From: Taiwanofungus camphoratus
Taxonomy: Eukaryota > Basidiomycota > Agaricomycetes > Polyporales > Taiwanofungaceae
Reading direction: 5' to 3'
Assembly (NCBI GenBank): GCA_003999685.1
Contig: CP021233.1
Location: 1,116,001 to 1,180,000, forward strand
Length of the DNA stretch: 64,000 bases
The position numbers were made by a program, and so were the translations under genes. This document shows positions 25,794 through 63,558 of the stretch, piece after piece. The stretch's first letter is position 1; each line of letters opens with the position of its first letter. Under the pieces are notes generated by a model that saw nothing but the letters and a program-made list of their open reading frames with translations, ran no database searches and was not told the origin of the DNA.

Positions 25794-28700
25794 ATGTCCA
25801 CTTCCACCTTGCGGATCCCAAGGAGATCATCTGGGCCGCGAGACGAAGATTCAGCGACCAATACTGGACCTGGACGCCCGTCTTATGCACCTGTCGTGTT
25901 GAGCATGGCTGCGGACGCCGGCGAAATGAGTGAGCGCACATTGCAGTCTCGCCACTCTGGGGTGTTTTCTCGATTGAACTTCAAGAAGGAGAGTTCCGAC
26001 ATCGACGTGGAACTCGTCGACCTTGAAGTAAATGAGTCTCGTCGGACAACCGATCGCACACCCAATGAACTGCCCGGTGGTCAACGCGTGTCTTGGAACA
26101 AGGGGAAGAAACCTTTCCCTTCGGCCGCATCCCCGATACTTGATGACGGCGCTTCCGACTTCGAGAGGGCGTTGAGAGATGTCATGGAGAAGTGTGTAAC
26201 GCTCGTTGTGTGCAGAATCTCACCACGTTTACTGTGCTCAACAGATCACATCAGTCGGGCATTCAGCGGAGGGAGCTTGGAGTCATGTTTGAAAATCTCA
26301 AAGTAATCGGTGCCGGATCATCGACAACATACCAGCCGACGTTGGGGTCCATTCTCAATCCTCTCAACTTAATTGAACTCATCCAAAGCATTCGTCATCC
26401 AGCGACACGGGAAATTCTCAGTGGATTCGACGGCGTTGTCAGACCAGGAGAGATGCTCTGTACGTGATTCGCGTTCTACTGAATCCGATTGTGTTGACTG
26501 TACTGCGTGCAGTGGTCCTGGGGCGTCCTGGGGCGGGATGCAGCACCCTACTGCGCACTCTTGCCAACGATCGAGGATGCTATCATGCAGTCCAGGGTGA
26601 CGTGCACTACGATTCGCTCTCGCCCAAGGTGATCGATGAGTACTGCCGCGGGGATGTACAATATTGTCCCGAGGACGATGTTCACTTTCCGTCTTTGACT
26701 GTCGATCAGACGCTCACTTTTGCGGCTACGATGCGTGCCTCGCATAAGCGCATCGAAGGGGTATCACGAGATGCATACGCGCGATGGACGACTGACGTAC
26801 TGGAAAGTGTGTTTGGTTTGAGCCACGCCAAGGACACTGTCGTGGGGGACGCCTCAATACGAGGCATATCCGGTGGTGAGAAGAAGAGGGTCTCTATCTG
26901 TGAGACTTTAGCGGCCAGGGGCTTGCTCACATGTTGGGACAAGTATGCCATTCCTGAATACTGTTGAGAGTTTTCCTTCTCACGTGCTGATTTTGTGTAG
27001 CTCCACACGTGGTCTTGAGTGCGTTGCTTTTTTCTCTATTTTCTGCATCAACGCACTGACCTGGTCGACGTAGCTCATCAACCGCTCTGGAATTTGTCCA
27101 GGCTATTCGCACCTTGACCGATGTGGCACATGTTTCCACGGTTGTCTCCATCTATCAGGTCGGCGAACCGCTCTACGAGCTATTCGACAAAGTCTGTGTG
27201 ATCTATGAAGGCAAGATGGCATATTTTGGCCCCGCGAACCGGGCAAAGCAATATTTCATCGACATGGGTTATGAACCTGCCCACAGACAGACTACAGCAG
27301 ATTTCTTGGTTGCCGGTATGTTCCGGTGTTCGACACGCATTAATTGTTCACATATTAAGTGCCTGATAGTAACGGATCCCCACGGGCGTACTCCACACCC
27401 TGACTGTCAATCGCCTGTGCCGCGTACAGCGACTGAATTTGTAGAGTATTATAGGAAGTCCGGAACCTTCCGAGCTAACAATGCAGACATGGAATCTTAC
27501 CGCAAGGAGTTCGTCGGTAAACCTGATAGGGCAAATGCCTATTTAGAAAGTGTCCGAGCCGAACACACCAGCAATACGAGGTCCAGGAGTTCATATATCA
27601 CCTCAATATCTATGCAAATCCGTGCGCTGATGGTTAGGAGAGCGCAGATCATTCGTGGTGCAATGACAGCATTCCTTGTTGAGATGTCGTAAGTTCCAGC
27701 CATCGCTGATAACTATTTAAAACCGTTTCTGACGCTATTCAAAGAACGTTCATCATATTGGCACTCATTGCTGGGACTGCCTACTTGCGGTTGAAGAGGA
27801 ATACAGACTCATTTTTTTCGCGAGCCAGTGTCATCTTCTTGTATGCGATTTTGCCTCGGGCAACCATTTGACGTCTGATGTAGTTTAATTTCCCAGTGCC
27901 TATATATGGTCTGGCCTCTCAACTATGTCGGAGATACCAACCCTGTTCACTCACCGGCCAATCACCCTAAGACAATCAAGAGCAACTATGTATCACCCAT
28001 TCGTGGAAGCACTTGCCTTGACACTGGTAGACATTCCCATCTCGCTCGTGACCATGGTCCTCTTCTCTGTCATACTGTATTTCTTGGCCGATCTTCAAGA
28101 ATCGGCAAGGCAATTTTTGTGGGTGTTTCTGAACAATGTTTGTCTCAACGGCGCTCGGGGTCAATTAATCAACTTCTGGCTCTTTTAGTATATTCATGCT
28201 CTTCGTGTCCACCATGACGATCACGTTGAAAGCGTTCTTCCGAGCCCTCACGGCTGCCTTCCAGGACCCTGCTCCTGCGCTTGCCGCATCGGGCATATCT
28301 ATGTTGATCCTAGTGCTTTACACCGGTTATCCCATCCCTGTGTCCTCCATGATCAAAGCATTATCATGGATTACGTATATTAACGTATGACCACCCTACC
28401 TTTGTCTTTGAGCGTCTGACCCATTCAACCTTTTTAGCCACTAAAATATGGGTTTGAAGCGCTCGTAGTCAACGAGTTTTCAACCCTGAACGGCACTTGT
28501 TCAATGCTCATCCCTTCCGGGCTTGGTTACAAGAACGTCTCTCTACTCAACCAAGCTTGTGTCACTGTGGGAGCCTTACCCGGACAGGCGTCTGTCTCGG
28601 GCACCCTCTATATGAAATATCAGTACTCTTTCCATTATAAGAATCTGTGGCCTGTGAGTTGCTGTCTCATTATGTTATAATGACGTCTGACGATCTTTCA

Positions 28701-31573
28701 ATTGGAGAACTTCGGAATTGTGTGCGGCTTTGGCCTTGCCTTCATAGGCTTACTTATCTTCTTGACTGAGATCAATACCGAATTCGCGCGCGAGATCTCT
28801 ATTGTTCTATTTAGACGAGGATCAAGGAGCAACTCTCCGGCAGTAATGGAAACTGAAGTGGAGAAGTCTGAGCCTCAGTCACCTATATCTGCTAGTGCGG
28901 AAACAGATTCACGAAACCTTTCGCATAATCCCATCAAGGGGAACATCTTTTCGTGGCATCACCTACGTTACGCTGTACCTGTCGGTGGAGGTCAGTCCAA
29001 ACAATTATTAAACGACGTGTCAGGATATGTGGCACCCGGGAAATTGACAGCCTTGATGGGGGAGTCCGGTGCTGGCAAGGTGCGCTCGGGGAGGTTCGTT
29101 TGTTGGATCATGGGAGAAGGTTAATTCGGAGCCACCATGGCTGACTTGCACAGACGACACTTCTCAACGTTCTTGCAGAGAGAACTGGTCTTGGTATCGT
29201 CACCGGCGACCGATTCATGAACGGCCAAGCACTCCCTCCGGATTTCCAAGCTCAGACGTAAGTTCACTTTCACTCACGTAAATACCGAACACAACGCGAA
29301 TTCTTGCTTTATAAAATGCAGGGGATATTGTCAGCAAATGGACACGCATGTGCCGTTCACAACTGTGCGTGAGGCTTTACTGTTCTCAGCAAAGTTGCGC
29401 CAGCCCCAGTCGGTACCGCTGGCGGAGAAGGAGGCTTAGTGAGTACCCGTAGTGTGGTGTGAATTTTGTATTGATATAAGTCATACTCCCTTTTTAGTGT
29501 CGACGAATGCTTGCACATGTGCGGATTGGCGCCTTATGCAGAGGCTATCGTCGGTACCCTCGGCAGCGAACAGCTCAAGCGCACAACTGTCGGCGTCGAG
29601 CTTGTCGCAAAGGTGCGTGATAAGCTGCTAATGACAGCGCAATCACTCAGAACATTTCTATTTAGCCATCTCTAATCTTCTTGGATGAACCTACTTCTGG
29701 GCTCGATTCACAAAGTGCATGGGCAATAATGAGCTTCCTCCGGAGCCTTGCTGATAATGGTCTCTCAATCGTATGCACGTATGTACCCGAAGTAACTATA
29801 TTTGTTCATTGTTTGATTTCTTGGTTATCAGTATACACCAACCATCTGCAGAGCTATTTGAGGTAATGATCATGATAACCCAGCAGAGTTTTCAGATTGC
29901 TGATCCTCTGTCGTGCCCAAAGGTGTTTGATAGATTACTGCTCCTGCAGAAAGGAGGAGAAACCGTCTATTTTGGAGACTTGGGCCATAAGTCTTCGACT
30001 GTGATTGACTACTTTGAGAGGAACGGTTCGAGGCCGTGTAACGAAATTGAGAATCCGTAAGCGCAGACCAACGTGCGGTACTACTAACGGGCTCATCATC
30101 TCATTCAGTGCTGAGTTTATCTTGGAAGTTATTGGTGCAGGTGCAACTGCGACTTCGGAGATTGACTGGAGTCCAGTGTGGCAGCGTTCTAAAGAAGCAT
30201 ATGATTTGCTACAGGAACTTGAATCAATTAACAGCACAGGTCGAACGCATCCGCCAATCAAGGTGGCTCAGCTACACGAGTTCGCGACCTCCTGGCGATA
30301 TCAACTAGTGGCATTGCTTCAAAGGGATTTCCGAAGTCTTTGGCGAGACCCTATATATCTCGTTGCAAAGATGATGATCAATATCTGTTGTGCTCTCGTG
30401 ATCGGTTTCACATATTTCAAGACCAAATCAACTGTACAAGGGACAAGAAACCAGCTTTTTGTCAGTTATCGGTTACACTCTATCACATCTCACTAATATA
30501 TTCTTTGCCACAGTCAATCTACATATCAATGTTCCTTGCTGCTCCGGTGGTTGAGTCATTGCAGGTTCCCTTCCTTGCTATTCGCGACATTTATGAAATT
30601 CGCGAACGACATAGTCGCATCTATAGCTGGACTGCGATGTTGACGTCGCAGTTTTTGGCAGAGATTCCATGGAATATACTAGGTTCAACTCTTTTCCTTG
30701 CGTGTTGGTATTGGACTGCAGGTTTTCCTAGTGGCCGTGCTGGTTACACATTCCTATTATTCGGTGTCATCTACCCACTATACTATACCTCCTTCGGTCA
30801 GGTGAGCTTTCTGCCACATTTTCTCTACTTACAATTACTGATCCACTGTGGTGTAGGCGACGGCGGCAATGTCACCGAACTCTGAGGTAGCCGCACTGGT
30901 ATTCAATGCGTTGTTTGCCATTATGATAATGTTGTAAGATATGTCAACAGAGAGATGTTTCGAGACCAGCTTGACGTTTATCCTGGACAGCGCTGGTGTC
31001 TTGGAACCATTGCGTGAATTGGGCTGGTGGAGATGGATGAATCGTGTATCTCCCGCAACATATTTTATCGAGGGCTTCCTAGGACAGGGTTGGTCATATA
31101 CTATTTGTGTTCTTTGGGCTAATCTTACTGAAGGGTAATCAGCTGTCGGACGACAACAGATCAGTTGTACTCCTGTACAGTTCATCAAGATCAACCCCCC
31201 ATCGGGGCAGTCTTGTTCCCAATACATGGAGCCATATATCTCTCTCTATGGCGGTTACCTCACGGATCAAGATGCTATCAGCAACTGCATGTACTGCCTT
31301 TACAGAACAACAGACCAATACCTAAAGACGCTAAACATATTCTACGATAATCACTGGAAGGATCTTGGTATCTTCTGCATATATACGGCCTTGAATGTGC
31401 GTCGCGATGGTACTGTTGTGTGTGTATGAGTTAACAGTCTATGACAGGTGGTCGGCATTTACATTTTCATGTATCTCTGTCGTATCCGCGCTGGGACTTG
31501 CGTTGAATGGTTGAGAGCGCGGTTTGTCGCTCGTTGGAGGTATTTCAGACAGTTATCAACTGTTCATACTTGA
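25794..31573 (+). CDS. PDR-type ABCG transporter (full size, NBD-TMD-NBD-TMD)
   Basis: Plasma-membrane efflux pump with over twenty exons from the ATG at 25794 to TGA 31571-31573. In order: [28 protein letters not shown]1 with Walker [10 protein letters not shown] (Cys in place of the usual Lys, as in all fungal PDR pumps), signature [15 protein letters not shown], and the D-loop in an 18-nt exon (27001-27018, STRGLD); and TMD1 with [15 protein letters not shown] and [15 protein letters not shown]. Then NBD2 has [15 protein letters not shown], intact Walker A GESGAGKTTLLNVL, signature [10 protein letters not shown], Walker [14 protein letters not shown] and [13 protein letters not shown]2 has [18 protein letters not shown], and the end is [21 protein letters not shown]. 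All introns I followed keep phase, so the gene looks whole. Co-location with biosynthetic enzymes suggests export of, or self-protection against, their product; general drug efflux is the alternative. Confidence 0.88.
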
Positions 31574-31802
31574 CGGTGATGGACGCCGAACCTATCATTC
31601 TTGTTACATTTTGGAAGGGATAATTATAGCTACGATATATCCTCATCATGGCATAGATACATCTAGGACACTAGTAAAGGTCGCAGTAATCGAATAATCA
31701 TCATTATAACCCAGGAACACGAGCAGGTATAGTCGATGGTAAATCCGAGAAGTCTACTTTCGACCCGTATTTGATACTGATCGTCCATCCTGGTTCCCTA
31801 TC

Positions 31803-33867
31803 CTAATCCAGATACTGAATGATGCGGTTCATTGAATCTCGGTAAGAGTCAATAATTCCGCTGCCTTGGCGCGAGGCTCCAATACACAGTTGAATGGTTT
31901 TGGGGCTCTGTGAATGGATCAGGACCGCAGGGTCGACGAAAGCAACAAGCAAAACGCACGGAACGAGACCTATTATGAAGTCAAGCGGGGGCGGGCGCGG
32001 CCTGCCGCCCTTCATCTCCGGCTTGATCTCGAATAAGGCTATGGTTCTAGCTACAATGAGATAAAGCAATGCATTGGCAAAATGCAGGCCAGGGCACAGT
32101 CTAAATGACGGTAAATCATTTGTTCAAGAATGACATCAGATGATCCACCTTCTTCCGAATCCATACACTAGAGTCCGAGGATCACGAGGGGCGGGATGGG
32201 AGTTTGAATGTATAAAGCGTTCGGGAAGGAACTTGTCTGGTTCCGAATATTCTTTTTCATCGTGCAGCATCGCCCTGTGTCACGATCAGCCAACTATCAC
32301 TGGACTACAGACAAGAGGTAATGCACCAGACATTGGCCATGATCCACGTCTTCTTCGGAATCCTGTAATCCAAATATTCTTCTTCGACTGTGTTGCTATG
32401 TGTTACAAGCGGGATAGCGGGGTTAAATCGATGGACCTCCTGAATGAGACAGTCAATATAAGGCAAAGAATCTCGGTCTTGCAGATCAGGTAGTCTATCG
32501 TTGCCGACGACAGCCGATATCTCTTCAAAGGCACGTCTCTGTACCTCGGGATGGAGTGCAATAAGTAATAGGAAGTTCAGAATTGTGCCTGTCAGCTAAA
32601 CACTTTTTAGATTATGGGAAAAGCCTATGCACCACCTTTACTTACCGTCTCAGTGCCCGCTGAAAGATTGCAAGAAGTTTGGCATCAGAGCAGGAATGAC
32701 ATGATAGATGGATGAACTAACCGCTGTAGAGACTGCCCGCTGCACTCATTACAATGTCCTCGTCCTCGAGAGCCGCATCTGATGATAGATCTTCAAGAGC
32801 TTCCCGGACGAAAGACGGCTTAGCAATCCCTTGTGCCTACAGGTTCAATGGATGGTTACATGCCTTACTTGGCGTCATAAATGTCGCTGCAGCGTACCAT
32901 CTCCTGCTTGACACGAAAGAATGGTACTCTTGTCATTTGATAAAACAAATCCCTTGCAGATTGCGCCCAACGCTGGAACTCGGCACCCGGAAACCACGCT
33001 GGCACATATATCACTGATTTACAGTCAAAATCGTGAAATATTTTTGAGAACAAGGTAAGAAGGACGGACATGCAGGTATGAAGTTCACCATCCATCGGCC
33101 TGGCTGCAGCGCTACTCCAGTCTGGTGCATGACAGTCTTCGCAAGCTCGACATATTCGGGCTGGGGTTCATGCCCATATGCAAAGCAGACAATCAGTTCC
33201 TCTACATTCCTTAGGAAGTCTGTCAGCATCCACTCTAGCACTGTGAAAGAGACTCGCGGAATGCCTACTTCTGCACGTCAGAGTAGAAAGTCTGTGGTGA
33301 ATTCAAGAAGCTTCGAGCAAGCTTGATGGACTGGACGTGAAGCAAATCGCTCCAGGTGCCGATGACCGCGCCCGCGTTCAACGAGCCATGTAGGAACTTC
33401 CGCGATTTCTTGAGGCGTTCGCCATAATATTGAAACCCCACGTTCTTCTGTCGTCCGAGTAGCTCGGCCATCGGCCACCGCGGCTTGCAAGCAAAAGTGC
33501 TCCGCTTCTCTAGTAGATCGATGGCGGCATCCGACGTATTGATCACAACAATGTTTTGGCCAAGTGTACGGAGAGAAATTAAAGGACCTGCACCCTTCAA
33601 TGAGATTTTCCTACAGCATAGCTGGAAGGTTGCAGTATAACGCAGAACGCACCCAAGTCTTTCGACCAGCTCGCGTAATTTCGCCAGGGCTGTTCGTACG
33701 ACTTGCTCCGTGAGCCAGGACCTGAAAGAACATGAGTGATCCTTGCACAAGCATAGTACGCCCTACGAACCGGGAGGAAGGGGCAAGCGGCGCAGTTGCT
33801 TGAGCGCTCTCGCGCCGAACAAGCAAATAACGAAGGAAACAAGTATGAGAACTTGGGCGGATATCAT
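31803..33867 (-). CDS. Cytochrome P450 (P450-1)
   Basis: ER-anchored haem monooxygenase. The ATG at 33867 begins MISAQVLILVSFVICLFGARALKQ, a single N-terminal anchor, then the proline hinge RRLPLPPGPGS and KDLGPLISLRTLGQNIVV (beta-1 region). The middle holds RPRW-type helix B/C text (KPRWPMAELLGRQKNVGFQYYGERLKKSRK). Towards the C-terminus come HPEVQRRAFEEISAVVGNDRLPD, the K helix (LIQEVHRFNPAIPLVTHS), KEYSEPDKFLPERFI (PERF), the haem loop VYGFGRRRLCPGLHFANALLY with the Cys ligand split by an intron, and the end at TAG 31803-31805. Organisation and wording fit the large Agaricomycete P450 group annotated as O-methylsterigmatocystin-oxidoreductase-like. The substrate is unknown; it probably oxidises the product of the surrounding cluster. 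Looks intact. Confidence 0.85.
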
Positions 33868-34700
33868 CCTGCACGTCCTGTACCGACTCGAGACCGATGC
33901 TCTCGAGGTTGTGATAGCCAACAACCACGAAATATGGGGAATCGATAACTAGTCGCCTTTGGAGACGTCGACTGCCCTTCGCTGCAGTTCGTCCTGACTA
34001 GTCTAGCCTGAGTCACCGTAGTCGGCCCTGCGGATATCTACTTCCTGTCCGCAAATTCGTCAGCAAAAGCTGTGATGTCTGCCAGTGACATCAATCTCAC
34101 AAGAATTCTGCTCTGATGATAGTCCCCAGGGGCGCGATGCAGGTCTGATTCACCAAATAGTTTTAGCACGCCCATCATAATCAAAGAGGTTTTGATAGAA
34201 CACATTTCGGGCGGTCGCAGTTGCAGGCTCCGATCTCGGCGAACTACAACTTCTTCCGTAGGCCAGCAAGCCATGCAATCAGAACATAGATGATATTGAT
34301 CACTCCGAAGCTATCTATAATCGAACCTGGCTGTGCGATGATCTTTGCAAGGTGACAATGGTTCTGGCAGCCGGAACAGCTGAATGTAACACATGATGTC
34401 GCAGGGGGTAAGACCAATTGTCACATCGTTATCATTGAACTGCACGCAAACCCATGCAGGTATGCTTGTTGATTTGCAGTAAGTAATGAATGTTTGTTGG
34501 GTAAAGCAACCCTTACACGGGAGACCTCAATAAACATATACCTGACAAGCGTCGCACCCGGCTCAAGAACTTTGATGCGTTTTACTACAGTGTCAGCATA
34601 ACAATGAGCGCTCAGGAAGTGGTACAAGTTTAAAACAGTTGACATCCGAACGAAAAGACTTCTTGACTGATATGGACCCTTAATGGAATGTGTGTGTACG
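33868..34700. other. Intergenic, no gene recognised
   Basis: Promoter of P450-1 and 3' flank of the epoxide hydrolase gene. Two minus-strand frames of about 75 residues show no family resemblance. Confidence 0.45.
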
Positions 34701-35898
34701 TTAGTTGAGAGGCAAAGTCAGGATCCAGCGCTCTAGTTCCACGTTTACTCCTTCGGAACATTCAAGCTGCAGCCAATGTCCAGCCTCGAATTCAGTATAC
34801 GTGACCTCTGTGCCGAACTTCTCCATGGTGGCTTTCCCGCGGACGGGCGTGCACACGCAATCCTTGAGTGCCGCAGCGAAGAATGAGGGCTTCTGGATCT
34901 TCCATCGCTCCTCGCTGATGTCTAAGATCGGACAGCAATTAGAGAACTGGACACCGGCAAGTGGGGGGCTTTCTGCTTACTCTTGTTATCTTCCAAATCG
35001 TTGTTTTGTAACTGGGATTTGTACCAGTTGAGGGAAGAACGAACGTCGCCTTCAAGGAGCTCCCGACGTAAGGTGTTGTATTCCTAGGAGCTTATGAGCG
35101 CAAGATAGACCCGGTTCGCCCCAACGCACCTCCTCCGTCAAATAGTCCGCACGACCAGGTTGCATGTTCGTCTCTATCCATTCAGCTGTTTTTCCAGGAA
35201 GTACCAAGTAAGGATTCCAGCAGGCGGGATCCTTCGGGTATAAGAGCTGCAGGAAACTATCAACCTAACGATTAACCATTAGGAGGAAAACCTGTGCATA
35301 TCATCCAGGAGACTCACATTTCTTTCGATGATTTCTGGCGCGTCGTCCCGTCGAAAGAACTGCCAGTAGGAGTATCCCTCATATCCGAGGATCTGCTTTA
35401 TCAACTTCATAGTCGCTTCCAGATCGAACTCAGTGGTGATAGGTTCCATGAATGACAGCCCAATCCACCCGAATCCATAAAATCGATCGCTGTATAGCAT
35501 CGAGAGGCGGGACAGGAGGCTACAGCCCCTGCAAAGACGACATGAATGAAGCACATGGAACCCGCCAAATCCGACGCCTACCAGTCATGCGCAATTCCAA
35601 CGACCTTGTGGAGGTTCTCAGTGTCGAGAATCTCGACTATATCAGCTGCCATAAGGTTCAGGCGAAATTCTCTGGCATCCAGGGGCTTCGATGTGCCACC
35701 AGCACCGAGCAGGTCTGGAGCAAGTATCCCATATCCCATAGCTTGAAAATGTTCGATCTGCCTGTGCCAATCATAGGATGTTGAAGGGAAGCCGTGCAAA
35801 AACATCAACGTTGGTTTTCCAGATGAGGCGCGTGCATAGTAGTAGTGGTAGTGGTGACCTCGCTTGACGTCGAGGTCCTTGTAGTTTGAGTGGTTCAT
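34701..35898 (-). CDS. Epoxide-hydrolase-like alpha/beta hydrolase
   Basis: Five to six exons, ATG at 35898, TAA at 34703-34701. The N-terminus MNHSNYKDLDVKRGHHYHYYYA leads into LMFLHGFPSTSYDWHRQIEHF, the HGFP oxyanion motif, then APDLLGAGGTSKP and VVGIAHDWGC. In HDWGC the Asp is the expected nucleophile of soluble epoxide hydrolases, where serine would mark an esterase. A lid region (FDLEATMKLIKQILGYEGYSYWQFF) follows, then the C-terminal GHWLQLECSE block with the catalytic His. The acid is probably in the VCTPVRGKAT region. Soluble enzyme, no signal peptide. It would open an epoxide made by a neighbouring P450 to a diol, which is inference. The start lies 579 bp from the divergent methyltransferase start. 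Confidence 0.84.
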
Positions 35899-36476
35899 GG
35901 ATGCAAGGGCTACGGAAGACTTGTTCTAAGCTCTGCAGCGATAGTCTCTCAGAGATACGTAGGGTGATAGTTTCCCACAGGTAGCATTGAGCAGGTATTC
36001 TGCTTCAACCTTCGCAGGCTTCGGATTTCCGTATCTGACCAGGATAACAGGTTTGACTGTCATGCCGTTGAACGTGCCTTTGTCAGGAGTGATTGATTGA
36101 TCCTGACATGAAGCAAAAAAAATTGAACACAATCAGATATCAGAAGAATCATAATGATTGACTTGGCTACCAGGTCTGCTCAGTCTTCCGCGAGAGTCGG
36201 ATGGAAAGTAGAGCTCAGGCATTCAAAGGAACAGCGATCGCTGTGACAATGGTTTACGTAATTCCCGCACAAACAGAGTGTCTGGGGTCTCCTTATTCCT
36301 CCCAGACGAACGGTTCAGATCATTTATCTAATGCACAGCGACCTCTTTTCGAGGCTATCAGGAGAAATGGCAGAAGAGAAGCTCTCACCGTGCTTCCTGA
36401 AGTACCGCCTTCGTACAGATCCCAAACTCGCACCCTCCATCTCGCACATTCGAAGCTGTCGTGTACTGTCTATACC
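35899..36476. promoter_or_regulatory. Shared upstream region of divergent epoxide hydrolase and methyltransferase genes
   Basis: 578 bp between the two ATGs, so it can hold a bidirectional promoter. A minus-strand frame at 35926-36132 has no recognisable homology and is not called as a gene. Confidence 0.4.
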
Positions 36477-37708
36477 ATGTCTACGAACGCCGAACTGAGT
36501 CAGCCGGGAGAAGCAAAAACATATGCTTTCCAGGTTTGTTACCTCTATAGCATCGACTGGCCGCTGTATCTCATTTGATCTTGGCAGCCTGCTTACAAGG
36601 TGCCAGAGGAAACCGCACGGTGAGAGACTCTTGTATCACTCTTTCAAACCATCTGACGCCAATTCGAGGCTCGATGAATTGCATGCAGGTATCACGGAAT
36701 ATTTCGGCAACAGGCTGTCTCTCGCACCGTTAGAAACCATAAGTCCTGTCAAAATACTTGAGTTGGGGTCCGTCGTCATTATCGTCTGTCCATAATCCTT
36801 AATGCTCAGCATGCGGTGCCCTAACAGCGCAGGCAGCGGCGCTTGGTAATTCCTCGCACAGCAGTCTCACAGAAGAGATCGAATAACTTCTATACAGGGC
36901 GATACAAGCTGCTACAGAATTTCCAGGAGCTCACGTACTGGCCGTAGACATATCGCCTATTCCACCCCGGTAAGCTGTTCATGCCAATCGATGGGCGTCG
37001 CTGATAGCAGTGGACAGCCCGCTTCCTTCGAATCTGTCCTTCCAGCAAGTAGATCTCACCAAACCATTCGCCCTGGAGAAAGAAAGCTTCGACGTCGTAC
37101 ATGCACGGCTTGTCATGATGCACGTGAGTCCTCCACCGCGCTCTGTCAAAATGCACCGGTCGCTCATCCTGTGTGCACAGCTACCAAATGGCGAAGATGT
37201 CTTAAGACGGGCTATCGACCTCGTGAAGCCTGGGGGATGGCTGTTGGTTGAAGACCCCGATGACGACAACATGGTTGACGGTGGCAAGCCCCTTGGCCCC
37301 GGAATGTCTGCGTTCGTTGGTGCTTGGCTGAAGATCGTGCGATCTCGTGGCGCTGAACCGAGCCTGGGACGGGAGCTGGAACGCATCCTCCAGTCTTCCA
37401 GTGCATTCAGCGAGGTCAATGTCATGAAGGTCACCATTCCGATCTCGGGGAAGAGCCAAGGTCTGCCCAGTGTATATTTTTCCCGTTGTTTGTAGACATG
37501 CTCATTTCCACCAGATCCCAAGGAGAACAAGCTGGGTCTGACGTGGAAGACCAATATGTTGCGCGTCGCACGTGATCTCCCTGGGCGTTTCGCCGAGCAG
37601 GGTATTACAGAGGAGGTGGCACGGAAGCATCTGGAGGAGTTGGAGGATCCTGACCGCGATATCACGACCGATATGTACTTCTCATGGTCCCGCAAGAGGA
37701 TTGTATAA
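36477..37708 (+). CDS. Class I SAM-dependent methyltransferase
   Basis: Eight exons (36477-36533, 36588-36619, 36669-36767, 36828-36845, 36898-36969, 37018-37123, 37181-37460, 37515-37708) give 285 aa. Motif I VKILELGAGSGAWAIQAATEFP is assembled from three exons, one of only 18 nt. Motif II HVLAVDISP, motif III LSFQQVDLTKPFALEKESFDVVHARLVMMH and the KPGGWLLVEDPD strand follow. The layout resembles the UMTA/LaeA-like small-molecule methyltransferases common in fungal metabolite clusters. It should move a methyl group from SAM to an O or C of a small molecule in the cytosol; the acceptor is unknown. LaeA itself is a nuclear regulator, and a regulatory role cannot be excluded. No damage seen. 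Confidence 0.83.
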
Positions 37709-38159
37709 GTGATTCCTGCACCAGCAACTTGACATTGATCGACTTGCGATTGACTTGTTAGGATACGTCACGAGATTTGTGACCAGACGTGCAATAGTCA
37801 CGCAGGCGCCCAATGTTACTCTGCTATCCTAATTTCAACTACTTGCATACTCAATGAGACTAACACTAATGCGGCGATGAAGTTTTATTATCTCACCTGA
37901 GGTTGATCATGATGACGATGCCCTCTTTACGGGATCCTGCCAGGGGACTTAAGGAGGGACACATGGACCGGACGCGGCGCACATCATTTCAGAGCTTCTA
38001 GTCACCCGTTTCAGACGCGCAATCAGAAGATACAACAATGTCAAGTTCAAATCATCTCCACTGCTCTTCTAGCCTGACCTGTCCGGCGACTGTGATTGGG
38101 GTGAAACATACCTCTGAAAGCATCCTGCTGTTGTCGTAGCCGCCTGGCGTGTTCAGACA
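37709..38159. other. Intergenic, no gene recognised
   Basis: 3' flank of the methyltransferase gene and promoter of the HSL-type hydrolase. Nothing else recognised. Confidence 0.5.
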
Positions 38160-39540
38160 ATGGCGCAGTATAGCCACCTCTCCACTCCGGATCCTGAGTT
38201 TGCTGCACTCCTAGCGCATCTGCCGTCCATTCCTCCCTGGTACGAGGTAGAGGATGCCGCCCTACTACGTCAACAGTTCAATGCAGGATTCATTGGGATG
38301 ATCCAGAATAATCTCAGGCCAAAGTTGCCTCCGAGTACGTACTGCAAGCAGATGGGCTTTGTCTAAGCTTTGCTGACAGGGCTCTGAAAGAGTCTGCGTA
38401 TCGGCTTCAGGACCATCAAGTGCCTGTTGAGGGCGATGTGATCTCCGTGCGATGTCTTACACCCACGTCGCAGGAGAAAGAGGCAGTCTTTCCGCTTTTG
38501 TTCTGGATTCACGGTGGAGGTGTGTTTGTATGGCGCGATCCACTTCTGGGAAAGGCTCACCGTTTCAACAGGCTGGAATTTCGGCAACTTGGATACGGAT
38601 GATTACTACCTCAGGATCCTCTGCGTTGATCTCCAAATCGCCATCGTGAACGTCGAATACAGGTACGTCTTGTCTTTCCTCAGTGCACGGCTTTTTGACG
38701 ACATGCCGTTTGTAGACTCGCCCCTGAACATCCGTTTCCCACAGGCCTCAATGACTGTTATGCGGCGCTGAAATGGGTATGGCCAGTCTCAAATCCCGCT
38801 CTGCGTCATTCATATCTTTCCAGGCAGCAGATAGGTCATCTCTGTTCTCGGCTTCGCTCTCGCGGGGTTTTCTCATAGGCGGCCAGTCATCTGGAGCAAA
38901 TCTCGCAGCTGTGATCGCGCATCGTGCGCGGGATGACGCTTTCTTCGCTGGGAGGAGACTGACAGGCCAAGTACTGCAAGTTCCGATTGTACTGCATCCC
39001 GACGCTTATCCGGAGAAGTAAGGCCAGAGTCGCTGCAGTCATGGACCGTGCTAACGTAGATTAGGTACAAATCCGAACTCCTTTCAATGGAGCAGAACAA
39101 GGACGCGCCCTTCCTCGATCGGAAGCAGCTGGACGAGTTCTATCGTACGTTTTCTCACCTAGGAGTAGAGGGCACAAGTGTCTTACCCAGAATGTTACTG
39201 CCAGGTCGTGTTCAGGTCCAGCCTTCCAATCCAGAATGCTCCCCGCTCCTTTTCCCCTCTCATAATGGTCTCCCTCCTACCTACATCCAGGTGTGTGGGC
39301 TTGACCCACTGCGAGATGAAGGGCTTCTATACGAGAAGGTGCTCAGAGAGGAAGGTGTCAAGACTAAAGTCGATGTGTAAGCGGTCACTCCATCCATTTG
39401 TTCCGCGTGGCATTGAACAGACAATGCATAGCTACCCCGGTGTGGCTCACGGCTTCCAATTGAGTTTCCCCGCTCTTGATGCTGCAGTCAAGCTCGATAG
39501 CGACTTCAAGAACGGGATCAGGTTGTTGCTGATGTCATAA
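38160..39540 (+). CDS. HSL-type (alpha/beta hydrolase fold-3) esterase/lipase
   Basis: Eight exons (38160-38338, 38380-38519, 38572-38662, 38716-38776, 38824-39017, 39065-39144, 39205-39376, 39432-39540) give 341 aa in phase. Family motifs: LLFWIHGGGWNFGNLDTDDYYLR (HGGG oxyanion hole), [43 protein letters not shown] with the nucleophile Ser in GQSSG, YIQVCGLDPLRDEG with the catalytic Asp, and VYPGVAHGFQ with the His. The complete triad points to an active carboxylester hydrolase of the hormone-sensitive-lipase group. No signal peptide, so cytosolic. In this setting it may remove or transfer an acyl group from a pathway intermediate, next to an acyltransferase gene. That link is inference. Confidence 0.86.
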
Positions 39541-48474: not shown

Positions 48475-49664
48475 ATGTCTCCTCGCTATTCCGCCCTTCT
48501 CAAAGGTCAGTGGTTTCCGGTTTTGAAAATGTCTAAACTGATTCAATGTCTCCTCTGCAAACTGTAGTCCTTTGTCCAATGCCGGGGAGTCTAGACGGCT
48601 TCGTATCAATCTTCCGACGGTTCATGCAGGATCCTCTCGGAATACGATACCACTTACATACTCTGTTGCTGTTCACTTGGGCAGATATGAAAACTATACT
48701 TCTACCCATCGTGCGTCCTCGTATAATGTTACGTCAACCCCGATTCTCGCTAACATTTCTCCATATAGACTGCTTTCGCGTGCTCGACGGCACCGCTTCA
48801 TTCCTTCTCGAATTTGGTACAGGGCATGATATGGATCTGGCTTCATCAGTTATTGTGCAATGTCTCCAATCAAGCAAGAGGGAAGAGTGAGGATGCCTTA
48901 AACAAACCATGGCGGCCTCTCCCTTCTGGGCGCCTCACTGAACCCCAAGCTGTCATCCTGCGTTGGATTACGGTAGCTGTGTGCCTCCTCTTGTCAGCAA
49001 CGTATGGCCGGGATCTCTTGATGACAACCGTCGGACTCATCCTCACGACGTTGCTCTATGACGAGCTTGGCATGGCATCTCATCACATAGGGAAAAACTT
49101 ATGCAACATAGGTGGATACACCACTATAGAAGTCGGCGCAACCAAACTCATGGGCATGTCGATTAGTCTTGTATTGTGTGTAATCAAGCCTGCTCATAAT
49201 TTGACTTCCAGGTGCGAGTCGCGACTTGGATTATGTGTCCACCGTAGCCGTCATCATCAGTGGAGTCCTTATATTCACTACCATTCAGGCACAAGACTTC
49301 CCCGACATCGAAGGAGACGCGGCCTTGGGTCGTGTGACTTTCCCCATCTATGCCCCCGAATTCTCGCGCATATTCACGTTCATTGTCATGCCGGCATGGT
49401 CGATCTTTCTTGGGTGGTTCTGGGACATCGGTGTCATTAGTCGCATGGTGTTCGCTGCGCTTGGAACATACGTTGGACTTCGGTACTACCTGTGGAGGAC
49501 AGTAGATATCGACAAGCGTTCATACGTTTTCTTCAATGTACGTACCTCAAAAGAACTTTTGCTGCATTGTCAAATTCTGAACGGCGTGATCACCTCTGAA
49601 GGCTTGGTTGACACTTGCGCACATTCTACCTCTCAGCGTCAGAACAGGTTTCCTTGCCTTTTGA
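48475..49664 (+). CDS. UbiA-superfamily membrane enzyme (prenyltransferase or UbiA-type terpene cyclase)
   Basis: Five exons (48475-48505, 48568-48710, 48769-49153, 49212-49537, 49602-49664) give 315 aa in phase. About seven to eight hydrophobic helices. YHLHTLLLFTWADMKTILLP opens the fold. The first active-site motif reads NVSNQARGKSEDALNKPWRPLPSGR: Asn-rich with Glu-Asp instead of the usual NDxxDxxxD. The second, QAQDFPDIEGDAALGR, is a proper DxxDxxGD. This wording matches a fungal branch related to the membrane terpene cyclase of fumagillin synthesis (Fma-TC), so a farnesyl diphosphate cyclase is as likely as a prenyl transfer to an aromatic. The enzyme would sit in the ER membrane and need Mg2+. 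The intron at 49154-49211 has a GC donor (GCATGT). It is the only scaffold-type enzyme in the neighbourhood. Confidence 0.82.
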
Positions 49665-50770
49665 TCGTGCCAACCAAGCACGTTACTTCACGAAATTCAA
49701 CCCGTTCTCAGAACCTCCGGCAGGATGTGCAATCGTCGATCCTTTTATTCTGCAATTTGAGCTAGACACTATGCGGTACCGGAAGCCAGTTGGAGGGGAT
49801 TCTTTACTCGCAGCGATGTCCAAACCGAGGACACCGAGGGCTTGGTGGAGGATGGTGGCAGGATCAGTTTGAAGGATGTCAGGGCAAGCCTCTACTTATT
49901 GTATCGTAAGTTATCCTAGAAGGTGTACGTGGCTGTGCATAGAAGGCGTTCTGCCTGCTTGTTTGTATCTCATTGCATATTTTTCGCACTTCCTTTTTGC
50001 ACAATGGTCCAATTTGACGCATTCTTTTGTCCATTACACGAACCGTCTCATTTCCGATTGAAATCCTCGATCAGTACTTTGAATGCCTGAGTCAAAGCTA
50101 CTAAAATGCTATGGAATGACTCCTTTTGACCGTTTTGCTTGGACTCAACAGTCGAAATTTTGTTCGATCCATACATCATTAGAATGGCCAAAGGTTCGGT
50201 AATCGACTCTAATCGACCACAAACGGCCGTATGGAAGGATGTTCCACAGGAAGGTCTAAATTTAGCTCTGTAGCGTCTACGCAATTTGACTTCGGGATCA
50301 CGACATTGTCAGACTGACTGAACGTGTTCAACACATTGAACACAATTCTAGCAGCCAATGTGATATGGTTGCTGCATCGCCGCCACTATGTGCTCCTTGT
50401 CAGAGCGACTCGTATTCTGCACGCTAGAAATATACATTGCGTGCATTTTTTTATTCGCGACGAAGACACCTCATGTGAAGTACAACAGAAAGCCGCAATC
50501 CATCGGTTTATATCCGGGAGTAAAGACAGATACATTCCGAACACCACATTGAGAGTACATACAATAAATATGACCAAGCTAACCATACACCATACAACAG
50601 AAATGCCTATTACGCTAGGTCGTGACCCTAGGGAAAGAATGATACCGTCAGAGGCTCACGAGCCTAGGAAGATTGATCGCAACTCACCTTGGAGGAATTG
50701 ACATCAATATATGTATCCGTGTCCATGACTTTTGAAGTGTCCACTCGGATTGCCATTGATGCCTCCTGAG
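49665..50770. other. Intergenic; one unexplained frame just after the UbiA stop
   Basis: A plus-strand frame continues to 49872 (LPFDRANQARYFTKFNPFSEPP...) with protein-like composition but no family I recognise. The rest shows nothing. Confidence 0.4.
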
Positions 50771-52609
50771 TTAGCGGTTAGCCCACGAATCAAGACGTCT
50801 TGCGAATAGATGACCAACATTCATAGAAGTCTCGTTCTTAGTATAGGCTGAACGAGCCGTCCCAATCGGCCGTAGATCAATATTGCTCGTTCCCGTTTGC
50901 GGTGTGGTGCTGCTGACATTCCATCCAGCATCCTTCCCTCTCAAGTATTGCCTCGCGTTCAAGTTCGCTAAGAGGGTATTGACATATAACGAGCTAAGGG
51001 GGAATTCGAATGCGCAGAACTGCAGACCATGGGGGAAAGCGGCGATCTATAGTACATTTTCCATGAATTGAACGGAAAGATCCACCAAGTCATCGAGGTG
51101 CTCACCAAGGACAAGTCGATGATAGCTACGACTGCCGTCCAGATGCCGCTGTTGATAGTGACGGCCACTAATCGGAAAATCATCTTGTTGGAGCTACATC
51201 GTAGGCTCTGAGTGTGCCGTGTCATCATAACATGCTGACTTGGCACCTACCGGGCAAACGATGACCGCCCTGTATTCACCAGCAGGAAGGTCATGAGCGA
51301 AGCGATCATGACGTCAACAAATGCACTAGTTGCCCGAATAGAGGTCTCAAATGCCTTGTGACAGAGTGAGGGTCCATTGTCACAAAAGGAAACGGCCAGC
51401 GCCTTACCACCATTTTCTCTGCCCCAAGAGCAGCGAGGGAATCATCAGTGAATCTATGGACACATAAATTGTTAATGATTCAGAGCAGCAACTCCATATC
51501 ACATACATCCAAACGTCGTAAGCTGGAGAAGGGGATTGATCGCTTAGCATATGAACATAGCGTGGACAGTAAGGTACGCACGAATCGTCCCAACTGAAAC
51601 GGCGACACCATTCAGCATCATTCATACCACGATAGTTTGTCGACTTACCTATCTGCCATAAAGCAATAGGAACCTACACGAGGGCCGTCAGGAAGGTACA
51701 AGCTATGTCATTGCGGTACTTACCAGAAGGAACGGAAATTTCCATTTCTTGCCGCTGACTGCCTGAAAGATTCAGCTACGTAATAGCAATGGTGTTCTGG
51801 TAACTTACACATGTATATACGCCATACGAAGAACATTTGGACGCCCACGGCCACAACACCCTGGGCATCATGGTCAGCGTTCAGCGGAATCACCAAGATA
51901 AAGTACGTTGACATACGGCTACCCAGCCATGATGCTTGAGGATTTGAAACAGATGAGCAGCATAGTGATGAGATCAAGAACATGGCACGAACCACGAGCG
52001 CCCTGTTCCAATGTGTGAGACATTTACGACAGATAAGTTTGGCCTATGCTTACGGTTGGGTTACTGATAGGCCTGCTACTCTTCCCCATTGCAAAATGAG
52101 AACCGGGAACACTGAATGAGATTCAGGTAAAGTCAGATCAGCCCTTCCACCACCCTGACCATTAACTCACTCGCCACCAATGTGAGGACTTGGTTAGCGG
52201 TATCGAAAGCCCTATTCGTAGACGTGAGACAAATGTATACTTGTATGTAGGTCACAAATGTCATTACCAAAGGAAAAGAACCTGCATTGCCATGCTTAAA
52301 TTCGTCTTTCAGAGGCACCAAATAGGAGTCTAGCACTCACAAGGCCTTTCAAAGCGATTGGGTCGCTATCATAGCTATGAACCGTTGTGAGTCTCTGTAG
52401 ATCATTGGTGCTAGTGTGCACACATACTGGAAGAAATACATAAACCTAAAGGCACATCGTCAGCATCAGTCCTGACAAGGATAATACGGGACGTACATCT
52501 GCATGCATCCAATGCCCCAGAGGACGCAAGACAAGACGTTACCGATCAAGATTGGCCCATACGAGCTCATGAGATTGAGAACGATGGGATTCTCGACGGG
52601 CGTGGCCAT
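50771..52609 (-). CDS. Seven-helix membrane protein with DUF6534-type domain
   Basis: The ATG at 52609 gives NPIVLNLMSSYGPILIGNVLSCVLWGIGCMQ (TM1), then FMYFFQYDSDPIALKGLV, WLLDTANQVL-type text (FDTANQVLTLVASE), GVVAVGVQMFFVWRIYM and PFLLV/ALWQI pieces. The C-terminal part has INSGIWTAVVAIIDLSLV and LLANLNARQYLRGKDAGW, ending at TAA 50773-50771 after a Ser/Thr-rich tail. This order (GPxLxGxxLxxxLxGxxxxQ, D-x-DP, W-R-I-Y, LNxRxxLRG) marks the DUF6534 proteins, very numerous in mushrooms and of unknown function. A GPCR-like topology with an intracellular tail is often supposed, but no ligand is known. About eight or more small introns. Whether it serves the neighbouring cluster is unknown. Confidence 0.76.
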
Positions 52610-53487
52610 GATGGTGGTGCGGCACTTGGCTGATCGACAGAGCTTCGTAAACTGGTTATAAGTGCCATCCCGCCATACTCCACGAGCGTCAATCCATATC
52701 TGCCCAGAAGCTGTGCGAACTACAAGATACTAGCATGGGATGCTACAGCGTCCGGATCTCGCCAGACGATGGCAGACTTCGGCTTATCGCAGGCGAACCA
52801 CAAATCTCTGAGTCGTATTTTGATAATCAAACTAGATCACCATGCATGCGAACAGCTGCTAACGAGTAATCAATGTGGCTGGAGCGTTTGACGTCCATAA
52901 TCTAGGTCAATACAATGCATTATTACAGGTTGTTGCCTGACTGGAACCATGGTGCTTACAGTGGTGATACGTACTAGTCACCTGGGCAATGTGTTTGAAG
53001 GTGTGCCGTTATGGCTAAATCCGGAGATGCCAGCGATCGACCTGCATGATCCCAAGACCAACTACAACTGCGAATCTGATTTTGATCGCGGATATTCCTC
53101 TACGGATACCTTGCGTTCACTATATCACCAGATGCAGGCACTGATGTTATACAAGAGTGCTCACTGAGTAGGACGAACACCAGCGAACACCTCAGACGAG
53201 AATCAGAATCAGACTGAATCGTACATAGGTAGACGACACCATATACCATGGCCATCAATCAATGATGGAAACCGTTTCAATGTCACCAGCTTACGAGTAC
53301 GGTTTTGGCTAATCCAGAGTAGGATTTGATGTTATCACCTGATTCATATCGGGCGCGATTTGAGCTCACATCAAACCTCCCGGTCTTTGGTTTCTTGCAG
53401 CATTCGACCGATTTTACCGGAACGTACGCTGCTACAAGTCCCATCTAAAGGCCCGAACTGAAACCAGGTACAGACAACGGGAGCAAC
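52610..53487. other. Divergent intergenic region
   Basis: Upstream of both the DUF6534 gene and the Gfo/Idh gene. A plus-strand frame at 52949-53167 has no recognisable homology. Confidence 0.45.
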
Positions 53488-54733
53488 ATGGCACCCATCC
53501 GCTTAGGATTTGTCGGACTATCCAACCAGGGCTGGGCATCTTGGATGCTCGCTCCGCCGCTCCTCAAGGCACCACTTTCCTCTGACTACACGCTTGCTGC
53601 TATCTCCACGAGCAATCCCGCATCCGCCTCCGTGAGCGCGGAGAAGTACTCCAAGCTAGCAAATACGACTGTCAAGGCATATCATGGGCCGACTACTGCC
53701 ATCGCAGCGGATAAGGAGCTTGACATGGTCGCTGTGGCGGTCAAGGTGCTGGATCATAAGGCAGCAGCGATCCCGGTGATTGAGGCGGGCAAGAGCTTAT
53801 TCCTAGAGTGGCCTGCTGGAAAGGACCTGAAAGAAACGAGAGAGATAGCAGAGGCGGCGAGCAGGAGAGGGATCAAGGCGATGGTTGGCTTGCAAGGACG
53901 GCAGAGCGTGCTGATCAAGAAGGCTAGTGCCGGTCGTTGTCGAAATCAGAGCGGACGATTCATGTTCATGACCATAACATTACAGCTCAAGGCTATCATC
54001 GAATCTGGCGAAATTGGACGTGTCATGTCTTCCACAGTGGTGAGCAGGTCCGACATAACATCACGAAAGCGCTAGTGGTCTGAACGAAACATTTGCTCAC
54101 ACCGTAAAGACTGCGCGCCCTTTCCGCGAGCTTTTCGCCTGGGGACCCTTCATCGGACAAGGTGGGCAGTACACCGCCCGAGCGGATAGTGGCGCCACGA
54201 TGTTAGATGTCGCGGTGGGCCACTTCCTGGACAGCTTTACCCTTGTGCTCGGGTCTTTCGCGTCCGTTTCCGCCGTCGTCGACAACCAATACCCCACAGC
54301 GGAGCTTGTCGACGCGACAGGCAATCCTATTGGGCAGACAATCGAACAGACTGGCGCTAACCAGGTGGCTGTCGCAGGAACCTTGAACAGCGGCGCTGTG
54401 GTTAGCTTGCATTGGCGTGGTGGCTTAGAGAGTAAGCCGGGCAAGACGGGCACGCCGTTCATCTGGGTCATCGATGGCGAAAAAGGATCAATTCGCCTCG
54501 AAAGTGATGATGCAGCAGGTAGTTTCATTCACATTCGCGACCCGACGATGTACTTGAATGGCGAGCAAGTGAACGTCGAAGAGGATGGGATGACGAACCC
54601 GGAGAGGGCATGGTTTGAATTCGCTAAAGGTCCGGAGGGCAGTTACGCGACGTTGGAGGACGCGGTAAGAAACAAGACTCTGCTGGAAGCTATCAAGAGG
54701 AGTGCATTGGAGGGTAAGAAAGTAGTCTTGTAG
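53488..54733 (+). CDS. Gfo/Idh/MocA-family NAD(P)-dependent oxidoreductase (Gal80-like branch)
   Basis: Exons 53488-53922, 53986-54039 and 54110-54733 give 370 aa. The N-terminal Rossmann fold starts IRLGFVGLSNQGWASWMLAPPLL, followed by ELDMVAVAVKVLDHKAAAIPVIEAGKSLFLEWPAGKDL (the E-W-P-x-G-K replaces the usual E-K-P) and MVGLQGRQS. The C-terminal domain has GQGGQYTARADSGATMLDVAVGHFLDSFTLVLG, then VSLHWRGGLE and WVIDGEKGSIRLESD. Most relatives are sugar or small-molecule dehydrogenases; yeast Gal80 is a regulator of the same fold that binds NADP without catalysis. The missing Lys of EKP favours a Gal80-like, possibly non-catalytic, protein. Intron 1 (53923-53985) needs a GC donor and is a multiple of three without stops, so retention is also possible. 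Confidence 0.78.
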
Positions 54734-55386
54734 CCATATATCAACTTCTCCCACTTCAGGCTGCGAGGTATTGAACAAAATTGTTTCTATCAATGTATGT
54801 TATAGTCGAATTTGATCCGTGGGAAATTGGAAATTAGCGTCTGCGACTACAGGGGTGGAAATAGCGGATACGATGGTGACGTTATTCTGTACGACCTTTC
54901 ACAGAATCTTGAATTCGTGGTTCCATGGGTTCACCAGTTTTCTTTTATAATTGAGGACCCATTGTGCAGCTCTGCTGCTGCAGGCCGATCCGAAACGTGC
55001 CGAATGAGTAGTGAAGGCGGTCTCCGGATCACTTTGATGCCAGTGCGAAATTTTGCTCACACCATGACTTGGCTCCTAGATTCTGTAATCTCCAACGCGT
55101 ATCACCTGGCCCTTATCGAGTATCGGATTGGCACGTAAGTACTCGAGAGTCTGACCTTTCGTGCAGGCTGTTACCGAGCGCCTCCCGTCAGTTCCTGATG
55201 CGGGTGCGTCGTAGTCGATCAGGACCTCTTGTATCAAAACAGGGCGGTATCAACAAATATGGAGAATCGGTTACGTTCCCACCCTTAAAGACTTCCAGCC
55301 ATCAGCTGTAGCCATCTGCCGGACACCCACCGCTCTGCAACTTGGAGCCTGGATCAAACCTTCAACTAGAACTGTGATCTTCAGCC
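54734..55386. other. Intergenic, no gene recognised
   Basis: A frame at 54812-55138 has no recognisable homology. Right end is the promoter of the secreted hydrolase gene. Confidence 0.45.
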
Positions 55387-56726
55387 ATGGTGTTCACTGC
55401 GACCATGGCCAGCATGGTTATGAGATTTGTTTTCAGTCTCGCAGTAGTGGATTTCTTTTTCTCACAAGTTCATGCATTCCCCCATTTCGGGGGCCGATCT
55501 GCTGGCCAGGCTTATACCTCTGGTAACATCACCGTTGGAAATAATGGCACTCAATTGGCCTATATTGACACTGGTGCTCCGGGGGGGCTTTACAGCTTGT
55601 CGTACACCACCATATTTGCTGTCCACGGTGAGGCATACTATAGCCGTAAGTCTTGTGATTATGCTCCGGTACAAGTCTCTAACGTAACTGTAACTACAGC
55701 TGTGTTCGCGAATGTCATGTCGCTCGCCCCAGTATTTGGGCTGCGTTTTGTAGCACTGAACCGCCGCGACTATCCCCAGTCTACGCCTTATTCCTCGGCA
55801 GAGCTTACTGTGCTCAGCAACGGCACAGATGCGGAGAAAACGACTTTTCTTCAAGACCGCGGGATCGAGATTGCGACCTTCATAGACACTTTCATTCAGC
55901 AAGAGAATCTCCCTGCCGTCTCGTCGGACGGCAAAAGCGGTGGAGTTGCAGTGCTAGGCTGGTCGCTCGGAAATTCGTTCACCATCGCCACCATTGCAAA
56001 CGTTGATACTCTACCAGCTGCTGTTCAGCAGCGTCTAGGATCGTATATACGGGCACTGATTATGCAAGGTCCGTCCTGATCCATCCGCTAGTTTTCAACC
56101 GCAAATTATATACCGATGAACGTACAGAACCGCCCGAAGTTGCGCTTGGGACCTATTTCCCCCCGCAGTCATGGTCGCCCCAGCTTGAGACCAGTATCCC
56201 CACCGCTGATCAAAATCCGGCGTTCGTTCAATGGATCACATCGTACTTCCAGCACGGTGATCTGTCTACGCGCAATCCGGATGTCCTCCAGTACGTGCTG
56301 CCAGCGACGTTCCGCGCCCCGACTGTTTTCAACATGACACCTGATCAACTTGCCGGAATGACGTATTTACCACCTTCGTCGGGGTCCGATGCCTATATTA
56401 TGGTGAACTTGGGGACGGTGTTGCTGGCCAGCTATAAGAAGGCATGTTACAACAGCACGATTAGGCAGTTGTTACCCAAGATGAACATCTGGGAGTTCAC
56501 CGGAGACGTGACTGCATCGTTTGCAATACCGGCGTACTGGTCCATCCAGGACGACAACACCGCAGCTGGCGGAGGCTTCGTCAATTTTCGTATGATTGAT
56601 GGTGTCAACCACTTCGTAAGTGTATGGCAGCCTGCTTTGTATCGCGTACTTATGTTCTGAGTACTATAGATGCATTGGGATGACCCGTTCACAGCTATAC
56701 AGGCTTACTTGGAAAGTCTTTCGTAG
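55387..56726 (+). CDS. Secreted alpha/beta hydrolase
   Basis: Four exons (55387-55627, 55700-56068, 56128-56615, 56670-56726) give 384 aa. The N-terminus is a signal peptide (MVMRFVFSLAVVDFFFSQVHA, cleavage after HA). The fold shows GTQLAYIDTGAPG, TIFAVHG, PVFGLRFVALNRRDYPQSTP, VAVLGWSLGNSF with the nucleophile elbow G-W-S-L-G, LIMQGEPPEVALG, a lid region, and MIDGVNHFMHWDDP with the catalytic His. Several N-x-S/T sites (GNITVGNNGT, SNVT-like) suggest glycosylation. It is a serine hydrolase outside the cell; substrate unknown. The exact joint after AVHG is a guess because a second small intron could replace the single one. Several ATGs lie at the start (55387, 55405, 55414). Confidence 0.78.
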
Positions 56727-57211: not shown

Positions 57212-58628
57212 TCAGAATCTGGGCGGCTGAGGTTCGTATCTGTCATGCGGGTGAGAGTGAGCCCCAAAGTCCTCAATTTAACCGGGGCACTTACAGCTCC
57301 TCCAAATACTTGACCTCATCTGCTGTCAAGGTCTTACCTGCGGTAACGCTCTCTTGCAATCTCTCCGGCTGATACCCGCAATGAGTAAGGCTCTACGAGC
57401 AGGGTAACGCACTACTTACGGAGTTCGCGCCCACAATCGGGCTCGTTACCTTGGAAGACGCCCAGGTGAGCGCAACCTGGCTCATCTTCCACTGACGTTT
57501 GGTGGCAAGGTCCTCCACGCGCTGAATGATCTTCTTGTCCGAGTCCCTACGTCTCTTCTCGAACGGCGTGCCGCTGATGTTTTTGGTCCTGGGCGTTTCC
57601 GTCCCCACTGGCCGGGCAAGGTGGCCATCCATGAGGGGGGAGTACGACAAGATGCCGATGCCCTTGTAGTTGCAGTATGCAAACATTTCGAATTCCTGGA
57701 AGTCCTGTCAATGAGCAACACGTCGACGCAGCCGGTACGTCACTGCACACCTCCGGGCGGTACAGCAACGAGTGCTCGACCTGTATGCTGACAAACTTGG
57801 TCCACCCGTTGACTTCCGCGACATGGTTCATCTCCGCGAACTGCCAGGTACGCATGTTGCAAGCACCAAGGTAGCGCACTTTGCCGCTGACAACCAGGTC
57901 ATGAAGGGCCTTCATCGTCTCCTCCAACGGCGTAGTAGGATCGAAGGTGTGGATCTGGAGAAGATCGATGTATCCTGTATCAAGTCGTCGCAGTGACGCT
58001 TCTACTTGGTTGAAGATGGCAGCGCGGGAGAGTCCACCCTGGTTGATAAAATCACGGGTGCTGCCCAGAGCGGGATTGAGCATAGTCAAAGTTGAGGGGT
58101 CAGGAGATACAAGGAAGAACACTTTGGTCATGATGACGAGGTTCTCCCTTGGAATGTTGTACTAGTGAAGTGACGGTGAGAATACATTAGTGAAGATGGG
58201 GCAAGAACCGACATTGTTCATGAAGGCTCCGAGGATCCTTTCGGCTTCTCCATTGGAGTATGTGTTTGCGGTGTCGATGGTGTTTATGCCCAAGTCCCAA
58301 GCGGCTTTGAGCAGAGGAAGTGCCTACAAGAGCTTTGAGTGATTTGTCTCTACATGGTCTGAATGAATGCCAAACCTTCTCTTCCGGCAGGACCCAGGGC
58401 TGGCCGCGGAGGATATTAGGTTAGTACAAGTGTCCATCTCACTCGGGAGCCAAGATAAGCAGTAACTTACGCTCCATTTGGGATTGCCGACGGTCATCCC
58501 CCCTAACTGTTTGGGCGTCAAGTCTGCAGGTATCGATGGGCGACTTCAATGATACTCACAACAGGCACTGAAACACGGAGGCCAGACTTGCCCAACTGGC
58601 GATATTCAGCCAATACTGGTTCGGACAT
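57212..58628 (-). CDS. Aldo-keto reductase
   Basis: NADPH-dependent carbonyl reductase with a TIM barrel. ATG at 58628 ([22 protein letters not shown]), TGA at 57214-57212. The tetrad is complete: Asp and Tyr in [25 protein letters not shown], Lys in LVIMTKVFF, His in [17 protein letters not shown]. Further blocks are [70 protein letters not shown], and [21 protein letters not shown] for coenzyme phosphate binding. The last exon gives YEPQPPRF. The subgroup resembles fungal AKRs near norsolorinic-acid/versiconal reductases, often used in secondary metabolism. Substrate unknown. An upstream in-frame ATG at 58703 would add 25 residues; the shorter start matches the family better. Confidence 0.84.
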
Positions 58629-63552: not shown

Positions 63553-63558
63553 CCATAG

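Follow-up and report, generated by a model that had tools for sequence, protein, structure and literature searches.

A dense run of enzyme genes around a UbiA membrane enzyme in Taiwanofungus camphoratus (= Antrodia cinnamomea) strain W1 raises the question of whether it encodes an undescribed terpenoid or meroterpenoid pathway, as the first-pass annotation had proposed, or one that is already known. The window, meaning the whole 64,000-nucleotide stretch that was analysed, is part of contig C14. Its genes were modelled with a custom gene finder that allows for introns, the window and 20 other stretches of this genome having served for training, and products were named through a Pfam search of the predicted proteins. 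The left part of the window includes a histone-fold gene, an amino-acid permease and an SNF2 gene, all recognised by Pfam, as well as F-box-like models recognised by eye. Further to the right, twelve genes occupy 31.8-58.6 kb, between an ABCG pump and a non-LTR-type retroelement; a model of 111 aa inside this run (g18) was taken as spurious. The features are listed from left to right, with gene ends that are approximate, several models having been fused or clipped by the gene finder, and with those tps1 letters given as proposed being inferred from gene order.

25905-31806, plus strand: ABCG (PDR-type) pump (model g10; first half scanned, with PF01061 at 117.7 bits, PF06422 at 84.1 bits, and PF00005)
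31829-34175, minus strand: P450, proposed Tps1B (PF00067, 136.5 bits; haem motif FGFGRRLCPG by eye; start unsure)
34701-36222, minus strand: epoxide hydrolase, proposed Tps1C (PF00561, 54.4 bits; best solved relative 5uro, TrEH, E 5.3e-21)
36477-37761, plus strand: SAM methyltransferase, proposed Tps1D (PF13489, 44.4 bits; a piece around motif I is absent from the model, with ELGSGAW readable across an intron; 3' end unsure)
38160-39820, plus strand: HSL-type alpha/beta hydrolase, proposed Tps1E (PF07859, 167.3 bits; 3' end unsure)
40004-41826, plus strand: acyltransferase-like protein with HXXXD, proposed Tps1F (PF02458, 18.0 bits, below the cut-off of 22.7)
42179-44717, minus strand: P450, proposed Tps1G (PF00067, 181.0 bits)
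45247-47493, plus strand: P450, proposed Tps1H, the C14 oxidase (PF00067, 222.4 bits)
48475-49537, plus strand: UbiA-type terpene synthase Tps1A (PF01040, 96.5 bits, passing the cut-off of 34.2; residue numbers; DIEGD)
50209-52898, minus strand: DUF6534 membrane protein, proposed Tps1I (PF20152, 62.9 bits; model ends unsure)
53488-54794, plus strand: Gfo/Idh (Gal80-like) oxidoreductase, proposed Tps1J (PF22685, 120.1 bits; fused with the next gene by the gene finder, the split start being placed afterwards)
55522-56726, plus strand: hydrolase-like protein, proposed Tps1K (GWSLG by eye; start unsure)
57212-58628, minus strand: aldo-keto reductase, proposed Tps1L (PF00248, 222.4 bits)
60088-63558, minus strand: non-LTR-type retroelement frame of 1156 aa, bordering the cluster and not a member (reverse transcriptase PF00078 and RNase H PF00075 on a piece)

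The gene models and Pfam matches bear out the genes that the first-pass annotation had named at this place, with two of its labels softened. Pfam scores, or the match to 5uro, support the epoxide hydrolase, methyltransferase, HSL hydrolase, UbiA, Gfo/Idh and aldo-keto reductase assignments, and all three P450s are present; it is fair to assign these to at least two families, with the first and third being 32% identical over 458 aa, and the second 22-23% identical to either of the others. The gene described as a BAHD-like acyltransferase has the HXXXD motif by eye, but falls short of the Pfam cut-off and has no convincing solved relative, all ten of its ten solved-structure matches being at E 0.29 or worse. 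The supposed secreted hydrolase is likewise hydrolase-like by eye, but the piece of it that was searched had no Pfam match at E 0.001. The DUF6534 membrane protein was absent from the earlier list. The ABCG pump is present, its start at approximately 25905 being unsure because model g10 (24963-31806) extends too far to the left, but its membership of the cluster is unsupported, as it sits outside the twelve genes that fit published letters. Separately, approximately 11 kb to the right of the window (C14:1191256-1192458) lies a relative of the hydrolase-like gene, 58% identical over 345 aa.

The motifs of the UbiA protein are, as read from its predicted sequence, those of a UbiA-type terpene synthase and not of a prenyltransferase. 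Firstly, motif I, NQARGKSED, fits NXXX(G/A)XXXD. Secondly, motif II, QDFPDIEGD, fits QDXXDXXXD. Thirdly, the tyrosine conserved in UbiA-type terpene synthases is residue 155 in the curated model, as in Tps1A (Y155). This model joins exons at 48475-48505, 48568-48710, 48769-49153 and 49212-49537, and lacks the C-terminal end past that last point; the first exon begins with an ATG and is followed by a 62-base GT-AG intron, while one later intron is GC-AG. In A. cinnamomea the (+)-(S,Z)-alpha-bisabolene synthase is Tps1A, for which mutants at five residues, D100, Y155, D215, D218 and D222, have been published (PMC9835599), and all five coincide in the curated window model, the first exon of which was curated with the published number 100 already known (the gene finder had begun the gene at 48687); the spacing among the five residues is independent of that exon, and might be common to any close orthologue. 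DIEGD is tabulated for Tps1A and DVAGD for Tps2A (PMC10608071), and these words are found in the UbiA proteins of the window and of contig C3, respectively. The same source also prints QDFPDIEFD for both enzymes (PMC10608071), which matches neither sequence. The database records of Tps1A and Tps2A are KAI0942648.1 and KAI0928020.1, and the identification made here draws on residue numbers, motif words and gene order.

Gene order extends this agreement from the enzyme to its surroundings. The tps1 cluster of A. cinnamomea strain s27 was published in 2023 by Hewage et al. (PMC9835599), who wrote their yeast vectors as G-H-A, B-C-D-E and J-K-L, and described Tps1B, G and H as P450s, Tps1D as a methyltransferase, and Tps1J, K and L as reductases (PMC9835599). 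Reading the window's genes rightwards from 31.8 kb as B, C, D, E, F, G, H, A, I, J, K and L, the twelve genes agree with the letters tps1A-L in number and, apart from one mismatch, also in kind and order. Three P450s and one methyltransferase fall at the corresponding places (B, G and H, and D), and the Gfo/Idh protein in slot J and the aldo-keto reductase in slot L agree with published reductases, whereas slot K holds the hydrolase-like protein without a Pfam match. The species is also the same, although the strain differs, being s27 there and W1 here. It is almost certain that the 31.8-58.6 kb interval of the window, on W1 contig C14, is the published tps1, with Tps1A, Tps1H and Tps1D acting as published.

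The cluster is already known. As its genes match an already published set, they are therefore real and biosynthetic, but not new, such that the description of the locus as undescribed has to be withdrawn. The proposal of a terpenoid cluster around a UbiA membrane enzyme holds, through the UbiA-type terpene synthase motifs and the fit to tps1, as does the point that no canonical terpene synthase forms its core, which is the UbiA-type Tps1A. The warning that cluster finders might miss such a locus has a precedent in Hohenbuehelia grisea, in which the 21 fungiSMASH clusters are reported to include no UbiA-like prenyltransferase gene (PMC11574748). In W1 itself, 26 clusters have been counted, and section 14 of that report does not state whether the present one is included (PMC8865532). 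The finding fits a published cluster, and the analysis places the tps1 and tps2 genes, with their neighbours, on the W1 assembly at chromosome level; each of the two has a retroelement next to it.

The second of these clusters lies at 701-722 kb of contig C3, where the other QDXXDXXXD UbiA gene fits tps2. The Tps2A aspartates D202, D205 and D209 all coincide (3/3) in the curated C3 model. Over 261 aa, the UbiA proteins of the window and C3 share 51.3% identity and 71.3% similarity, alongside published values for Tps1A and Tps2A of 50% and 68% (PMC9835599). The two loci share a UbiA terpene synthase reported to give the same product, and the P450 beside the window's UbiA gene has a P450 match at C3, with 75% identity over 232 aa. 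They differ in that the tps2 UbiA gene has four P450 loci no more than 10 kb away, and in motif I, which reads NQYRSVLED in the C3 protein, with S instead of G/A. Each of the two UbiA clusters is bordered by a non-LTR-type retroelement, and the two elements are related: that of C3, at approximately 707.7-710.8 kb, is interrupted, and two of its protein stretches are 94% and 92% identical to the window's element.

The early steps of the pathway have been reconstructed with the s27 enzymes. Tps1A alone converted FPP to (+)-(S,Z)-alpha-bisabolene in yeast; the P450 Tps1H oxidised C14 of alpha-bisabolene to give 14-bisabolenoic acid, in yeast and in microsomes; and Tps1D turned this acid into its methyl ester, both in yeast and as a purified enzyme (PMC9835599). 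A 10,11-epoxide and a diol also seen in yeast were attributed to yeast enzymes and water (PMC9835599). In W1, the corresponding Tps1A would be an intramembrane UbiA-fold synthase with D100 and QDXXDXXXD in the metal site where farnesyl diphosphate is ionised, and would close C1-C6 to form (+)-(S,Z)-alpha-bisabolene. Tps1H, most likely the P450 at 45247-47493, would oxidise C14 to the acid, and Tps1D, most likely the methyltransferase at 36477-37761, would form the methyl ester. The two remaining P450s, along with the epoxide hydrolase, the HSL-type and hydrolase-like proteins, the acyltransferase-like protein and the two oxidoreductases (Gfo/Idh and aldo-keto reductase), would then finish the molecule, and the ABCG pump may export the product. 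Set beside Tps1A by published description are Fma-TC of the fumagillin cluster, with beta-trans-bergamotene as its product, and EriG of the erinacine cluster, which gives (-)-cyatha-3,12-diene (PMC9835599).

Juvabione-like end products, and an action on insects, were suggested by the 2023 authors (PMC9835599). In its fullest form, such a reading would have the remaining enzymes turn the methyl ester into an oxidised, hydrolysed or acylated, juvabione-related juvenile-hormone mimic, exported by the pump and active on insects, with the epoxide hydrolase acting on a P450-made 10,11-epoxide. The conjunction of all these parts is quite unlikely; within it, pump export and the epoxide-hydrolase step are inferences added by the present analysis. 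No report of a tps1 end product was found among the literature titles and abstract openings listed, although one may still be in print.

The alternative that best survives is that the twelve genes do not form one pathway, with only the UbiA enzyme, one P450 and the methyltransferase cooperating, and the rest being bystanders. It would account for the outcome of co-expressing more tps1 genes in yeast, which gave nothing later than the methyl ester (PMC9835599), and it is consistent with the content of the C3 cluster, of which 21.5 kb was searched: of the window's cluster genes, only those for UbiA and the P450s had matches there, with none for the methyltransferase, epoxide hydrolase, hydrolases, acyltransferase, DUF6534 protein, Gfo/Idh protein or aldo-keto reductase. 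However, the genes form an unbroken series of enzymes of the kind usual in secondary metabolism, and the authors themselves suggest that missing partners, or enzymes inactive in yeast, could explain why no later products appeared (PMC9835599). This bystander reading is rather unlikely.

Far less survives of the idea that this is an undescribed meroterpenoid cluster, in which the UbiA enzyme would prenylate an aromatic acid and the P450s would modify the product, as in pleurotin. Fungal meroterpenoids do start from UbiA prenyltransferases (PMC11574748), and A. cinnamomea does make antroquinonols (PMC9835599), but the window UbiA carries terpene-synthase motifs and not NDXXDXXXD, which four other UbiA genes of the genome carry instead, and there are no PKS or aromatic-pathway genes among the Pfam-named window models. 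The tally of motifs covers eight of the nine UbiA loci in the genome, the one on C5 being left out: QDXXDXXXD is present in 2/9 (the window and C3), NDXXDXXXD in 4/9 (C2, two on C13 and one on C9), and neither is found in the models of 2/9 (C6 and the other C9 locus). The meroterpenoid half of the original label is hence unsupported, and a meroterpenoid core, rejected on the UbiA motifs, is extremely improbable.

Equally little can be said for a version that keeps the species and cluster, but makes the UbiA enzyme secondary to a canonical synthase just to the left of the window. A PF19086 gene (103.2 bits) does lie there, at C14:1113224-1113541, approximately 2.5 kb from the window. Yet it is approximately 28 kb from the pump, with the histone-fold, amino-acid permease and SNF2 genes in between, and bisabolene was made in yeast by the UbiA-type Tps1A alone (PMC9835599). 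This candidate core was rejected on its distance and the intervening genes, and its probability is negligible. The model of the PF19086 gene has no obvious DDxxD by eye. A cyathane-type cluster, of which a GGPP synthase within the cluster is a feature, was also rejected, as none of the nine PF00348 matches of the genome search (0/9) fall in the window.

Chance assembly was rejected on P450 density. Of 143 P450 candidates in the genome, 92 were scored; they yielded 101 listed matches, which collapse to at least 71 loci, so that these counts are lower bounds; 74 CYP genes have been counted in W1 elsewhere (PMC8865532). Three or more of these P450 loci were contained in at least 79 of 32,591 windows of 32.8 kb slid across 14 of 15 contigs. 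The P450-dense windows fall in four regions, the present one and three others, which lie on C3 (near 0.7 Mb), C6 and C7. A P450 locus was found within 20 kb of at least five of the nine UbiA loci, against 6.9% of random positions. Both UbiA prenyltransferase genes on C13 have such a neighbour, so proximity to P450s is not confined to terpene synthases. This C13 pair, near 543 kb and 578 kb, consists of two models with NDICDRDFD that are 94% identical over 285 aa; approximately 35 kb separates them, they lie on opposite strands, and both have a P450 locus no more than approximately 2.2 kb away. It looks like an inverted duplication, and is a candidate meroterpenoid locus.
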